From Candidatus Gastranaerophilales bacterium (GTDB lineage Bacteria; Cyanobacteriota; Vampirovibrionia; Gastranaerophilales; Gastranaerophilaceae): a stretch of DNA of 64,000 nucleotides. The notes under the pieces are model-generated. The model was not told the origin of the DNA. It searched no databases and saw only the letters and a list, made by a program, of their open reading frames with translations. Where the stretch lies: positions 62,001 to 126,000 of the forward strand of contig CALVBU010000004.1 of assembly GCA_944325875.1 (NCBI GenBank), given 5' to 3'. The translations under genes and the position numbers were made by a program. Positions within the stretch are counted from its first letter, which is position 1; the number at the start of each line of letters is the position of its first letter. Shown piece after piece: positions 25,255 to 38,880 of this stretch.

Positions 25255-25447
25255 TTTTACATTGATTTGCATGTGTAAAATGTTTATTTTAAAATTCACT
25301 TAAGAGGAAATGAAGTGGAGATCTTCAACTGCTGCCGCAGCCGTAATAGTCGGAATGCTCAAAGAAAATGCATTATCCACGTGCAGTTTGGATGTGTACA
25401 TAGCTTCTTTGAGTCCTCTATCGCAGAAAAAGCTGGAGGATTTTTTA
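25255..25447 (+). other. GC-richer structured stretch before the CPHG-motif gene
   Basis: Most of this 193-bp gap (25316-25447) is clearly richer in G+C than its surroundings. CTCAAAGAA near 25359 is complementary to TTCTTTGAG near 25410, ATCCA and TGGAT lie between them, and GCTGCCGCAGC is a self-complementary block. An ORF in the frame of the downstream gene runs through from 25310, but AAGAGG there lies only two bases before its ATG. A GTG at 25316, in another frame and at proper spacing from the same site, would open a 55-codon leader ORF overlapping the start of the next gene. I can name no riboswitch class. Confidence 0.4.
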
Positions 25448-35045: not shown

Positions 35046-35714
35046 ATGAATAAAAGACTTATTATAATTGGTTTATTAATTTTAGCTATTTCTATTATTG
35101 GCAAATTGGTTTTTTCTGCAGCTAAACACATTAAGGTTGATGATTTCAAACCTGCTGCGGTTATTTTTGTTGTAGATTCTTCTGCATCTAACCAAAAAGG
35201 ACTTGCAGCTCAGAAAAAAACTGTTAGACAAATATGTAATATTTTAGATCCTGAAGATACTGTAAAAATTTTACGAGTGTCTGAAGATGCCTATTTAATC
35301 TATGAAGGTGCACCATTTAACGGTTCTGGCATTGATAAGGCTATGGATGCGTTTACAAAATATGATGAAAAAGATTATGGAACAGCTTATGGAGTTGGAT
35401 TAAAGAAAGCTTTTTCTCATGTATTAACAATGAAGAAAAACGGATATCTTCCAGCTGTTGTTGTATTGGGCGATTTGGAAAACGAAGGTTCTGTTGATAA
35501 GCAGATTAACTGGGATACTTTACCAAAAAATGTTCAAAATGTACAAAAGTATGCTCCGGATTTAGCAATGATGTTTCTATATGCTCATCCGGAAAAATTA
35601 GATATGGTAAAAGAAAAATTAGGTCCTGTTTTGGGAGAGAAAAAGCTGTTGATATCTCCTGAGCAAAATGTTGATAAAACTATTAAAAGTTTTGTTCACG
35701 CACTTGATAGATAG
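35046..35714 (+). CDS. Membrane-anchored von Willebrand factor A-like protein
   Basis: The 222-aa product has an N-terminal membrane helix (NKRLIIIGLLILAISIIGKLVF) and then a VWA fold. The metal-dependent adhesion site is recognisable as FVVDSSASNQ (D-x-S-x-S), with GTAYGVG and VVVLGDLEN in the places where the second and third MIDAS loops are found. It opens a tight run of four more genes with TonB-like and FHA-like domains, implying a partner function. No strong ribosome site lies before the ATG. Confidence 0.75.
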   Translation: MNKRLIIIGLLILAISIIGKLVFSAAKHIKVDDFKPAAVIFVVDSSASNQKGLAAQKKTVRQICNILDPEDTVKILRVSEDAYLIYEGAPFNGSGIDKAMDAFTKYDEKDYGTAYGVGLKKAFSHVLTMKKNGYLPAVVVLGDLENEGSVDKQINWDTLPKNVQNVQKYAPDLAMMFLYAHPEKLDMVKEKLGPVLGEKKLLISPEQNVDKTIKSFVHALDR

Positions 35715-35731
35715 AAAGGTTGTATAAAGTT

Positions 35732-37333
35732 ATGTCAATAGTAATAATGTCTTCAACTCAAGAAAAATCTTTTGAAGATAAAGATTTGATAAATATTGGT
35801 TCAAATCCGAATTGTGATTTTATATTAAATCTCGGATATGATGTAATTTTAACGGTGCAAATTGATAAAATTACTGGCAAGTGCTTTGTCGTAAATAACT
35901 TTCATAATGAGAAAATTTTGTTTAAGGGCAAACCTTTGCAAAAAATTGAAGTAGTTAATGTATGTAAGATTGTTTTTGCCGATACAACCGAATATATTGG
36001 TGTTAAGTATGTTCCTGAAACAAAATCTATGACTATGATTGAACAGGAAGACTTAAATGAAGAAGATTTGAAACACATATACGGAAATGATTCCGCTACA
36101 ATTACAAGGGTGAAAATTGAAAAACAGCGTGAACCTATTGAAAAAGCTCGTGTCGCAATAATTAAGCAGGTAGCTTATTCTATCAATGAGTTTAGACAAA
36201 AACTATCAGCCAATACCAAAACAAGTATTTTTCTACATATAGCACTTTTGGGTGCTGCTATTATTAACTCTTTTGCGGTTTCTAATTATTTAATGGGATT
36301 AACCGTAAAAGAATCTGAAAAATATTTATATTTGCCGACAAATATCAAAGTTTGGGTTATATATGCACTTATTACTTTTGCAATTTGTTTAATGTTAAAG
36401 CAGGGTGTTTGTCTATTCTTGCAGAACAATGTTGTAAAAGATAATATTAAAACATCAAGAATTGCCCAGAATTTTATGTTGTGGCTTTCAACTATATTTT
36501 TGCTTGGAATTTATTCTGTTAACTTAGTTTATTTTATGAATGTAAATAATTTTATGTCTTTTGCGGTCTTTATTTCACTGTTCTTTACAGGAATAATGGC
36601 TACCATTGCAATTGCTTGCGGATATTTCAAATGTAATAGTTCAGAATGGCAGGCTACTTTGAATAAGTATGAATTCAGAGAAGATTTTGAATCTGTTTTG
36701 AAAGCATACAGAGTTTGGATAGACAGATATGTTAATAGTTTAAGTAAAACTAAAATTCAGAATATAAAAGACAGATTGTTTAGTTTGCAGTTAAAATCTA
36801 CAGGTGAAGTCGTTTTAGGTATTTTAACAGCACCATTTTTGGCTTATGGTGTATCTAATACTTTAGCGATGTGCTTCCCAGAAGCTGCAGGTTGGGTAAG
36901 AATTTCAGGATTACGTTTTAGTCCTATTTTCTTAGTATTAGCAACTTTTTTGATTATATTTGCGTTTTTCTCATTTGTTGCTGCATTTACAGCTTCTAAG
37001 AAAATTCAGGCTTCCGAAGTAATTAAACAAGATGGTTTTATTGATTATAGACAGCATGGTGTAAATATTTTTGGGCTTGAAGGTGTAAAAAAATTAAGAG
37101 CTGATAACAGAAGATATTTAGCGATTGCTTTAAGTATTATATTTATTGAATTTACAATGAACGTTTCATACTTTATGACTGAAATTGGCGGGGATTTCAA
37201 GGGCTTGGCTTTGAGCTTCATTGCAGCACTTGTTCCAACTGCTTTGCTTCTTGCTGAAACTGTCTTGTTAAGTCAGACAAATTTTGATATTTATGCTTGC
37301 GATGAGTTGATCGCTAAAATTGATAAAGATTAA
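35732..37333 (+). CDS. FHA-like domain fused to an eight-helix membrane protein
   Basis: The ATG at 35732 lies 12 bases after AGAAAGG; an upstream TTG at 35720 abuts that site and is rejected. The first 105 residues are FHA-like (DLINIGSNPNCDFILN, then HNEKILFKG), a phosphothreonine-binding or degenerate fold. Residues 105-160 are polar. About eight membrane helices follow, among them IFLHIALLGAAIINSF, FMLWLSTIFLLGIY and ALSFIAALVPTALLL. It is 17 bases from the VWA gene and two from the next. I know of no named family with this order of parts. Confidence 0.72.
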   Translation: MSIVIMSSTQEKSFEDKDLINIGSNPNCDFILNLGYDVILTVQIDKITGKCFVVNNFHNEKILFKGKPLQKIEVVNVCKIVFADTTEYIGVKYVPETKSMTMIEQEDLNEEDLKHIYGNDSATITRVKIEKQREPIEKARVAIIKQVAYSINEFRQKLSANTKTSIFLHIALLGAAIINSFAVSNYLMGLTVKESEKYLYLPTNIKVWVIYALITFAICLMLKQGVCLFLQNNVVKDNIKTSRIAQNFMLWLSTIFLLGIYSVNLVYFMNVNNFMSFAVFISLFFTGIMATIAIACGYFKCNSSEWQATLNKYEFREDFESVLKAYRVWIDRYVNSLSKTKIQNIKDRLFSLQLKSTGEVVLGILTAPFLAYGVSNTLAMCFPEAAGWVRISGLRFSPIFLVLATFLIIFAFFSFVAAFTASKKIQASEVIKQDGFIDYRQHGVNIFGLEGVKKLRADNRRYLAIALSIIFIEFTMNVSYFMTEIGGDFKGLALSFIAALVPTALLLAETVLLSQTNFDIYACDELIAKIDKD

Positions 37334-37335
37334 TT

Positions 37336-38076
37336 ATGAAATATTTAAAAATATTTATAATATTAATGGTAATAATATTAACAGTAATTGCAGGAGTGAC
37401 GCAACAAAAATTGCATAAGCCTCTTGTGATTACTGGTGCTGATTTTCAGCTTCAACGATTTACTGAGCAAATATCAGAAAAGATTGTTCAAACTTCAACT
37501 CCAAACGAGCAGAAGGTTAGTCGTAATGTAAAAATTGATCCATCTTCTTTTGCTTCTGAGGAGATGATTTTGTCTATGAACGATCAGAAAAATACGGAAA
37601 CCTTAGTAGAAGAAGCACCTTCTGAAGAACCAGATTTAAATGGGCTTGAGCAAATAGCGAATGATATTCTCAAAGAAAATATTCAAGAACCTTCTAACGA
37701 TAAGGCTAAATTAACTAAAAGAGAAGAATTGATTGCGTGGAATAAATGGAGAAGTGATATTCAAAATGAAATTATGATGCAAACCCAAGTTGATGCTCCA
37801 TTAGGAACCGTATTTTATTTTTCATTTGTTGTAGATAAGTTCCGTCATATTTCCAATATAAAAGGAATTTGCTCTAATCCGTTTGCACAAAAGGAAGTTC
37901 AAACAAAGCTTATTCCTGTAATCAAATCTTTAGAATATACTTCATTATTAGAATTTCCTAAAGGTACAAATAGAGAGAAAACTACAGTTAGAGGAATGTT
38001 TTCATTGGGAACTGAAACGACGCTTTCAAATCCTAATGATTACAATGATATAGAAAGGGTTCATGTTTATGAGTAG
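37336..38076 (+). CDS. TonB-like membrane-anchored protein
   Basis: This 246-aa product begins with a membrane helix (KIFIILMVIILTVIAGVT), continues with a Glu/Pro/Asn-rich linker (residues 30-130), and ends with a domain of about 110 residues. The domain has a W...I...I helix followed by PLGTVFYFSFVVDKFRHISNIKG, FAQKEVQTKLIPVIKSL and a FPKGTNREKTTVRGMFSLGT strand. That order matches the TonB C-terminal fold in form. It begins two bases after its neighbour, and its stop overlaps the next small gene. Confidence 0.72.
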   Translation: MKYLKIFIILMVIILTVIAGVTQQKLHKPLVITGADFQLQRFTEQISEKIVQTSTPNEQKVSRNVKIDPSSFASEEMILSMNDQKNTETLVEEAPSEEPDLNGLEQIANDILKENIQEPSNDKAKLTKREELIAWNKWRSDIQNEIMMQTQVDAPLGTVFYFSFVVDKFRHISNIKGICSNPFAQKEVQTKLIPVIKSLEYTSLLEFPKGTNREKTTVRGMFSLGTETTLSNPNDYNDIERVHVYE

Positions 38077-38206
38077 AAGTGGAATGATGACATTTGTGGT
38101 TGGAGTTTTTCTCGTAATGGTTCTACTTACTGCTGTTATGGCTTTTAGTAAACCTTCAATTAATAAGACTGTTATATTGCAAATACAAAAAGTTGTACAA
38201 AAATAA
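38069..38206 (+). CDS. Small single-pass membrane protein (45 aa)
   Basis: This short gene begins at ATG 38069, nine bases after AGAAAGGG, and overlaps the preceding stop by eight bases. The product is MSRSGMMTFVVG... followed by one strongly hydrophobic helix (residues 8-26) and a Lys/Gln-rich tail (INKTVILQIQKVVQK). Its tight packing between the TonB-like and zinc-ribbon genes suggests a small subunit of a membrane complex. An in-frame ATG at 38063 is too close to the ribosome site. Confidence 0.7.
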   Translation: MSRSGMMTFVVGVFLVMVLLTAVMAFSKPSINKTVILQIQKVVQK

Positions 38207-38259
38207 TTTCATTTAATAGAATGATTGAATATTGTAATTTTACATTATAGTATGTTTTT

Positions 38260-38880
38260 ATGTTTAAGTGTACAATTTGTCAAAAATTACATAACACAAG
38301 AGTTGATTACTGTGATTGTGGAAATGATTCTTTTGAAGAAATTCCTGATGTGCAGGAAAATCCAGCTTGGAAAATATCTCTGACTCCTAAACAAATATTC
38401 TCAGGTATTATATTTTTGTTCTGCGTGATATTTTCATTCTGGGTATTATTTGGGTTGAATTTTAAATCAACAGGAACAAATTCTGAACATAAGCCTGATA
38501 AGATTGTTCATCAAGTAAAAAACATTCCTCAAATTGATGACATTTGGGATGATACCCCTCCAGGTGGTATATCTGTTGGCAATACAAATTCTTTAGATCT
38601 ATATAAATCAAAGCTGCAGAAAGCTCTTTATTCTAATCTTGAAGTTAATGAAGTCTTTGAAGAGGGTCGTTGTGTTATTGAGTTTAATGTCAATGACCGT
38701 GGTAAGCTCTCAAATAGAAGATTATATAAAGAAAAAGGCAGCGTTATTTTTAATAATAATGTTATAAGAATGATGAAACGTACGTCAAATGTTTCAACTC
38801 CGCCTTCTGGATATGAAAATATGAAATTTACTGCGGATGTATATACTAAAAATGGTCTTATAAGAATAGATTTGAGATAA
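38260..38880 (+). CDS. Zinc-ribbon, membrane helix and TonB-like C-terminal protein
   Basis: The 206-aa product starts with a cytoplasmic zinc ribbon (CTICQKLH...DYCDCGN, Cys pairs near residues 4/7 and 18/20). It has one membrane helix (about 47-70), a proline/acid linker, and a C-terminal domain of about 95 residues (YKSKLQKALYSNLEV...GRCVIEFNVNDRGKLSNRRLYKEKG) with the helix-strand order of TonB C-termini. A -10 TATAGT lies eight bases before the ATG without a ribosome site, so it may be transcribed separately and leaderless. The N-terminal zinc ribbon makes a cytoplasmic partner or regulator likely. Confidence 0.75.
   Translation: MFKCTICQKLHNTRVDYCDCGNDSFEEIPDVQENPAWKISLTPKQIFSGIIFLFCVIFSFWVLFGLNFKSTGTNSEHKPDKIVHQVKNIPQIDDIWDDTPPGGISVGNTNSLDLYKSKLQKALYSNLEVNEVFEEGRCVIEFNVNDRGKLSNRRLYKEKGSVIFNNNVIRMMKRTSNVSTPPSGYENMKFTADVYTKNGLIRIDLR

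Follow-up and report, generated by a model that had tools for sequence, protein, structure and literature searches.

Gene content of the cluster

A cluster of five genes lies within a 64,000-nucleotide stretch (the window) of the genome of Candidatus Gastranaerophilales bacterium (GCA_944325875.1, contig CALVBU010000004.1, positions 62,001 to 126,000, forward strand). The cluster encodes a von Willebrand A (VWA) protein, a protein that joins an FHA fold to eight transmembrane (TM) helices (FHA/8-TM), two proteins with TonB-like ends (TON3 and a zinc-ribbon/TonB protein) and a small protein with one TM helix (Table 1). The host genome is 2.2 Mb in size and 99.96% complete, and the window is on its contig C4. 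The whole analysis is computational, with topology assigned from hydropathy and predicted models, and all five proteins are predicted to be membrane-anchored.

Table 1. Genes of the cluster and their positions in the window
Gene	Position	Strand	Predicted features
VWA	35046..35714	+	single N-terminal membrane anchor, periplasmic (predicted) von Willebrand A domain, intact metal ion-dependent adhesion site (MIDAS)
FHA/8-TM core protein	35732..37333	+	FHA fold at residues 1-95 (cytoplasmic), then eight long TM helices
TON3 (first TonB-like gene)	37336..38076	+	N-terminal TM, linker, C-terminal domain distantly related to TonB-C
47-aa single-TM protein	38063..38206	+	resembles the TON3 anchor without the arm
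Zinc-ribbon/TonB protein	38260..38880	+	cytoplasmic ribbon, TM ~46-64, linker, C-terminal TonB-C

All five open reading frames (ORFs) were found where a preliminary description of the locus had placed them, and the tight packing that it reported is borne out by intergenic distances of 17 bp, 2 bp, a 14-bp overlap and 53 bp in gene order. The FHA/8-TM frame can be extended to a TTG at 35720, and the ATG at 35732 is preferred because orthologues begin there. PlsY, encoded on the opposite strand, is the upstream neighbour of the cluster. Promoter-like matches at the cluster are not commoner than in shuffled sequence, and its status as an operon therefore depends on spacing and conservation.

Conservation and distribution

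In a species-wide genome collection, 63 loci carry the FHA/8-TM gene; their labels, in part vague, almost all read Gastranaerophilales or unclassified gut bacteria. Within the same family the gene occurs in 40 of 60 genomes, one of which (G038) has a 99-aa FHA fragment only. A sample of 386 genomes from across the phylum has it in 128, and every listed match there belongs to the same family. Part of the homologue sets was collected with this protein as the query, so conservation beyond the family may be missed. Of the 60 family genomes, exactly those 39 whose FHA/8-TM gene is complete or almost so contain the VWA gene, and 20 lack both genes; these genomes are related, and the co-occurrence counts are not independent events.

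In related loci the VWA gene adjoins the FHA/8-TM gene, TON3 comes next in most, and the zinc-ribbon gene is found in many. The outer flanks vary by lineage while the gene order holds across many genera, for which reason the arrangement is not attributable to chance. Judged by spacing and synteny, the five genes form a conserved predicted operon. A scattering of orthologues in relatives, which the preliminary description had named as fatal to its proposal, was not seen. That the genes are mere neighbours in a little-studied genome, with no joint function, gains room from the fact that the members are known from sequence alone. It is contradicted by the synteny, by shared presence and absence and by the repeated exchange of the VWA partner described below, and is scarcely credible. 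A phage or defence origin was dropped, as searches of the cluster against PHROGs and PADLOC returned no match.

A second, paralogous cluster is present on contig C1 of the same genome (G000:C1:392888-399200; L096:6886-13199), with the order secreted divergent VWA, TrbI-like, FHA/8-TM, TON3 and zinc-ribbon, followed by an MCE/MlaD gene. As here, genomes with the secreted VWA form may also carry the anchored form at another locus. A quick tree of FHA/8-TM proteins requires two changes between anchored and secreted VWA, forced by branches with Shimodaira-Hasegawa-like approximate likelihood ratio test (SH-aLRT) support of >=95, which indicates that the VWA partner at the locus was swapped at least twice.

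Two observations concern the margins of this distribution. Locus L057, labelled uncultured Clostridia, has VWA and FHA/8-TM genes and probably stems from a mislabelled or mixed genome bin. The orphan 99-aa protein of G038 (L141:6542-6838) matches the FHA part of the core protein only and is not accompanied by any other cluster gene, and several further genomes of its genus (g38) give similarly weak matches.

Structure of the FHA/8-TM core protein

The full AlphaFold2 model of the FHA/8-TM protein, with a predicted local distance difference test (pLDDT) score of 82, is composed of a β-sandwich (residues 1-95) and eight long TM helices. The protein has no credible sequence match in Pfam, NCBIfam or the PDB. 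Superimposition of the modelled residues 1-95 on known structures gives Rv1747 FHA-1 as the best match (Z 13.2, root-mean-square deviation (rmsd) 2.2, 93 aligned), and the predicted structure thus has the FHA β-sandwich fold.

The residues by which FHA domains bind phosphothreonine (Gly-Arg, Ser-x-x-His and Asn), placed here by sequence pattern rather than structure superposition, are not retained. Position 24 is never Arg in 93 homologues, which have Ser, Thr, Asn or Ala instead, and the conserved Ser-x-x-His is not found among FHA homologues, whose expected site reads L-T-[LV]-Q. A search of the 99.96% complete genome for PF00069 (Hanks-type Ser/Thr) kinases, the one kinase type looked for, came back empty. 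Because the binding residues are missing in all homologues and no such kinase was found, the phospho-dependent control proposed in the preliminary description is unsupported, and a phosphothreonine switch acting through the FHA domain was dropped. The sole Pfam-detectable FHA domain of the genome (G000:C5:83672-83797) is located in a separate 1732-aa frame.

The TM part modelled alone has a predicted template modelling (pTM) score of 0.74. It has no Foldseek match at E <= 0.001, a result that does not demonstrate a new fold. Comparison by VIA retrieves mainly TM-helix segments of ABC exporters at a Z of about 7, including MsbA (Z 7.3, rmsd 3.9, 120 aligned), a Z range that the tool describes as a possibly common arrangement. 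Alignment of the two TM halves yields an hhalign score of 26.7, compared with 25.4 for the best of 60 block shuffles and 14.6 for a reversed control; this weak similarity suggests an internal duplication of the 8-TM part into two related four-helix halves. Seven polar residues in predicted TM helices are invariant (T257, E364, T366, N368, T394, E400 and T401 in TM alignment numbering), and the long helices of the model extend past the membrane, as in ABC exporters.

The invariant polar residues, the two weakly similar halves and the exporter-like helices would all fit an 8-TM protein that acts as an energiser or transporter, in which the two four-helix halves use an ion gradient or carry a substrate and the arms transmit movement or pass cargo. 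This is rather improbable: the TM part lacks a Foldseek match at the threshold given above, the cluster has no ATPase gene, the genome already encodes a canonical motor, and the polar residues may be invariant for structural reasons. More doubtful again is the specific proposal that the protein represents a new type of energiser or moving core in the inner membrane, with no relation to ExbB/TolQ, and operates the arms and the VWA head without ExbB/ExbD.

The weak, segment-level resemblance of each TM half to the TM domain of type IV ABC exporters such as MsbA, together with the MlaD/MCE gene beside which the paralogous cluster ends (L096:12315-13199), could also be taken to indicate a complex for lipid or polymer export or envelope biogenesis instead of an adhesion tether. 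Unlike type IV exporters, the protein has no sequence match to them and no nucleotide-binding domain, and its low Z falls within the common-arrangement range. The MCE gene adjoins the paralogue of this genome but is not recurrent, and no nucleotide-binding domain or glycosyltransferase is conserved nearby. We hold export to be quite improbable.

Anchored and secreted VWA proteins

The anchored VWA protein has a single TM at about residues 5-23 and matches Pfam VWA_2 above the cut-off (E 3.7e-8). Its MIDAS is complete, with D44-x-S46-x-S48, T113 and D143 supplying the D-x-S-x-S motif plus Thr and Asp, and all five residues are identical in 75/75 homologues. None of the TMs of these 75 proteins contains Asp or Glu, His or an SxxxH motif. 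The secreted form (L096:6886-7668 and 30 relatives) carries a C-terminal tail of the Y-[KE]-F-[IV] type behind a variable Q/N/P-rich linker. The tail is present in 30 of 31 secreted VWA proteins, the exception being cut by a contig end, vs 5 of 863 other ORFs. It is a possible candidate strand for β-strand addition to a TonB-C-like domain, or a sorting signal.

TonB-like arms and the small anchor protein

The zinc-ribbon protein matches Pfam TonB_2 over the cut-off (E 4.2e-6), and its C-terminal profile retrieves only TonB and HasB chains from the PDB, which identifies a TonB-C domain. Its four cysteines (CxxC...CxCG, here CxxC...CxCGN) are invariant in 74/74 homologues; a PDB search with the ribbon returned only weak rubredoxin and unrelated matches. 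TON3 is composed of a TM at about residues 4-22, a juxtamembrane motif of the P-x-x-[HNY]-K type, a variable low-complexity linker and a C-terminal domain that belongs to no Pfam family, though conserved. Comparison of the C-terminal alignments of the two proteins (hhalign probability 93, E 3.3e-7 as a single comparison, 66 columns) lends moderate support to a distant relationship of the TON3 domain to TonB-C. The SxxxH motor-docking motif is absent from both arms (0/84 TON3 and 0/71 zinc-ribbon TMs).

The labels given to these proteins in the preliminary description thus stand to different degrees: VWA by Pfam; FHA by predicted structure, not Pfam; and TonB-C firmly for the fifth gene and distantly, with moderate support, for the third. 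The absence of VWA, FHA or TonB-C folds, its other ground for rejection, did not occur. The small single-helix protein that it listed comes from a real gene: where an A-type locus leaves about 160-200 bp or more between TON3 and the zinc-ribbon gene, a similar TM ORF of ~45-49 aa with a KPxxHK/KPxxNK motif occupies that gap. The 47-aa protein of the window has KPSINK after its TM and an alternative start at ATG 38069.

Two loci have an extra two-TM ORF of 60-64 aa in this gap, beside a 46-47-aa anchor protein (L039:10443-10622 and L080:10088-10279). Elsewhere in the genome, a 235-aa protein (G000:C17:28863-29090; L139:4480-5187) combines a signal-peptide-like start with a TonB_2 domain and has no long arm, and TonB-C domains therefore seem to be used outside TonB-type arms in this genome.

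Resident motor and TrbI-like proteins

Neither ExbB/TolQ nor ExbD/TolR is encoded in the window operon, in agreement with the preliminary description, and related loci differ in what flanks them. About 88 kb away on the same contig, one operon (L132) encodes a TolA/TonB-like protein, ExbB and two ExbD. The suggestion that the polytopic protein substitutes for ExbB/ExbD loses its premise because of this operon, and a necessary replacement was dropped; an 8-TM motor keeps the low probability given above. Two TrbI-like secreted proteins are encoded directly upstream of the motor operon (L132:1672-6040, G000:C4). The gene immediately upstream of it is homologous to the TrbI-like gene of the clusters (blastp up to 3.4e-35; hidden Markov model E 8.6e-54), which in many loci sits upstream of VWA-FHA/8-TM or of FHA/8-TM. 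This homology across both loci ties the module to TonB-type envelope work.

The resident motor bears on a further explanation, in which the arms are alternative TonB/TolA proteins powered by the ExbB-ExbD-ExbD complex and couple the proton motive force to an outer-membrane task such as import, adhesin movement or envelope constriction. ExbB and ExbD families are both present in all 39 relatives searched, TrbI-like genes lie beside both systems, and the Myxococcus Agl/Glt machinery uses FHA and TonB-C domains with a motor in which one ExbB-like protein is joined by two ExbD-like ones (PMC3169522; PMC9389320). Against such coupling, the SxxxH motif is absent from every arm TM and present in the resident TonB (ISVLLH), and the motor operon has a TolA/TonB-like protein of its own. 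We regard this explanation as unlikely.

Comparison with known envelope systems

Arms of the TonB type are known to take part in iron import, in constriction of the outer membrane and in gliding. The arms described here resemble the TonB/TolA force transducers in their N-terminal TM, their low-complexity or proline-rich periplasmic linker and their TonB-C domain (clear in the zinc-ribbon protein, distant in TON3). They differ from these in the missing SxxxH, the ribbon on the cytoplasmic side, the lack of an adjacent ExbB/ExbD and the co-encoded VWA and 8-TM FHA proteins.

By its parts, the nearest described machine is Myxococcus Agl/Glt. The Agl/Glt gliding machine and the Nfs spore machine likewise combine an inner-membrane FHA protein, TonB-like arms (GltG and GltJ, the latter with a cytoplasmic zinc ribbon), a VWA surface protein (CglB) and a motor built from an ExbB-like protein plus two of the ExbD type, whereas in the window the FHA domain is on an 8-TM protein without a TonB end and the operon has no TPR proteins. 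GltG has an FHA-TM-TonB architecture and binds AglR, an ExbB-like protein that has two ExbD-like partners (PMC3169522; PMC9389320), and NfsG is an FHA/TonB protein as well (PMC2875238). Searched against the host genome, the GltJ model NF033761 aligns with nothing but the linker of the resident TonB, at 16.1 bits vs a cut-off of 450. No Roadblock (PF03259, MglB-type) protein was found in the genome; MglA was not searched. On these two results, membership of the Glt system is not supported.

According to a 2025 survey, vWA proteins tethered by a TM act either as force transducers or as partners of motors, and the motor-docking site is the SHLS motif, of which SxxxH is the start (PMC12204202); the alternative hallmark of these proteins is a transpore helix with an Asp in the TM. 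The window protein shares with these a periplasm-exposed, TM-tethered VWA domain and differs in that its TM has neither SxxxH nor Asp/Glu (75 homologues) and no TolQ gene is adjacent. Though TonB-C, the FHA fold and VWA are all present, the operon is not filed as a Ton, Tol or Glt system because the motor motif, an adjacent motor and a GltJ match are missing; it works like them at most in outline.

A proposed trans-envelope tether

We infer that the operon encodes a lineage-specific trans-envelope tether or adhesion complex, anchored in the inner membrane and spanning the periplasm without direct ExbB/ExbD drive, and consider this about evenly poised between right and wrong. The machine built from one conserved operon in the preliminary description thereby survives, on gene order, co-occurrence and folds, without its phospho-control. 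The five proteins would make one complex with the 8-TM protein as its membrane core and the degenerate FHA domain as a cytoplasmic docking or assembly surface rather than a phosphothreonine switch. The TON3 and zinc-ribbon arms would cross the peptidoglycan layer to hold a partner close to the outer membrane, probably by β-strand addition as in TonB and TolA. The 47-aa protein may pack against the core as an additional anchor of the TON3 type. The VWA domain would be a head for metal-dependent adhesion or binding, which in this form is held in the periplasm and in the sister form is secreted, and the secreted TrbI-like protein is a likely additional partner in many genera. The most likely job would be tethering or surface display and adhesion without direct motor drive; this carries most weight, ahead of drive by the resident motor and, after that, an active 8-TM core.

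Several points weigh against the tether. The grouping of the five proteins into a single unit is drawn from gene data, the TonB relationship of TON3 is distant, and the outer-membrane partner is hypothetical. TON3 is unrecognised in some deep lineages (e.g. L084, L085 and L092) and the zinc-ribbon gene in L073-L079. The window cluster has no TrbI-like neighbour, while the paralogous cluster of the same genome has one. A motor might also drive some TonB-like arms that lack the classical motif.

The combination of TonB-like arms, a MIDAS-bearing VWA protein and an 8-TM FHA protein that fits no known family appears to be previously undescribed, and a search of a partial literature collection turned up no publication that deals with the operon or with TonB-type systems in Gastranaerophilales. 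The host, a gut relative of cyanobacteria, does not photosynthesise, and the biology of its envelope has hardly been studied. Should the complex be confirmed, it would represent a new architecture linking the inner membrane to the outer surface and would mark a protein that may do this linking without the usual motor. Apart from the cluster, the window contains an AdoCbl-II cobalamin riboswitch (Rfam RF01689) at 25286-25369.

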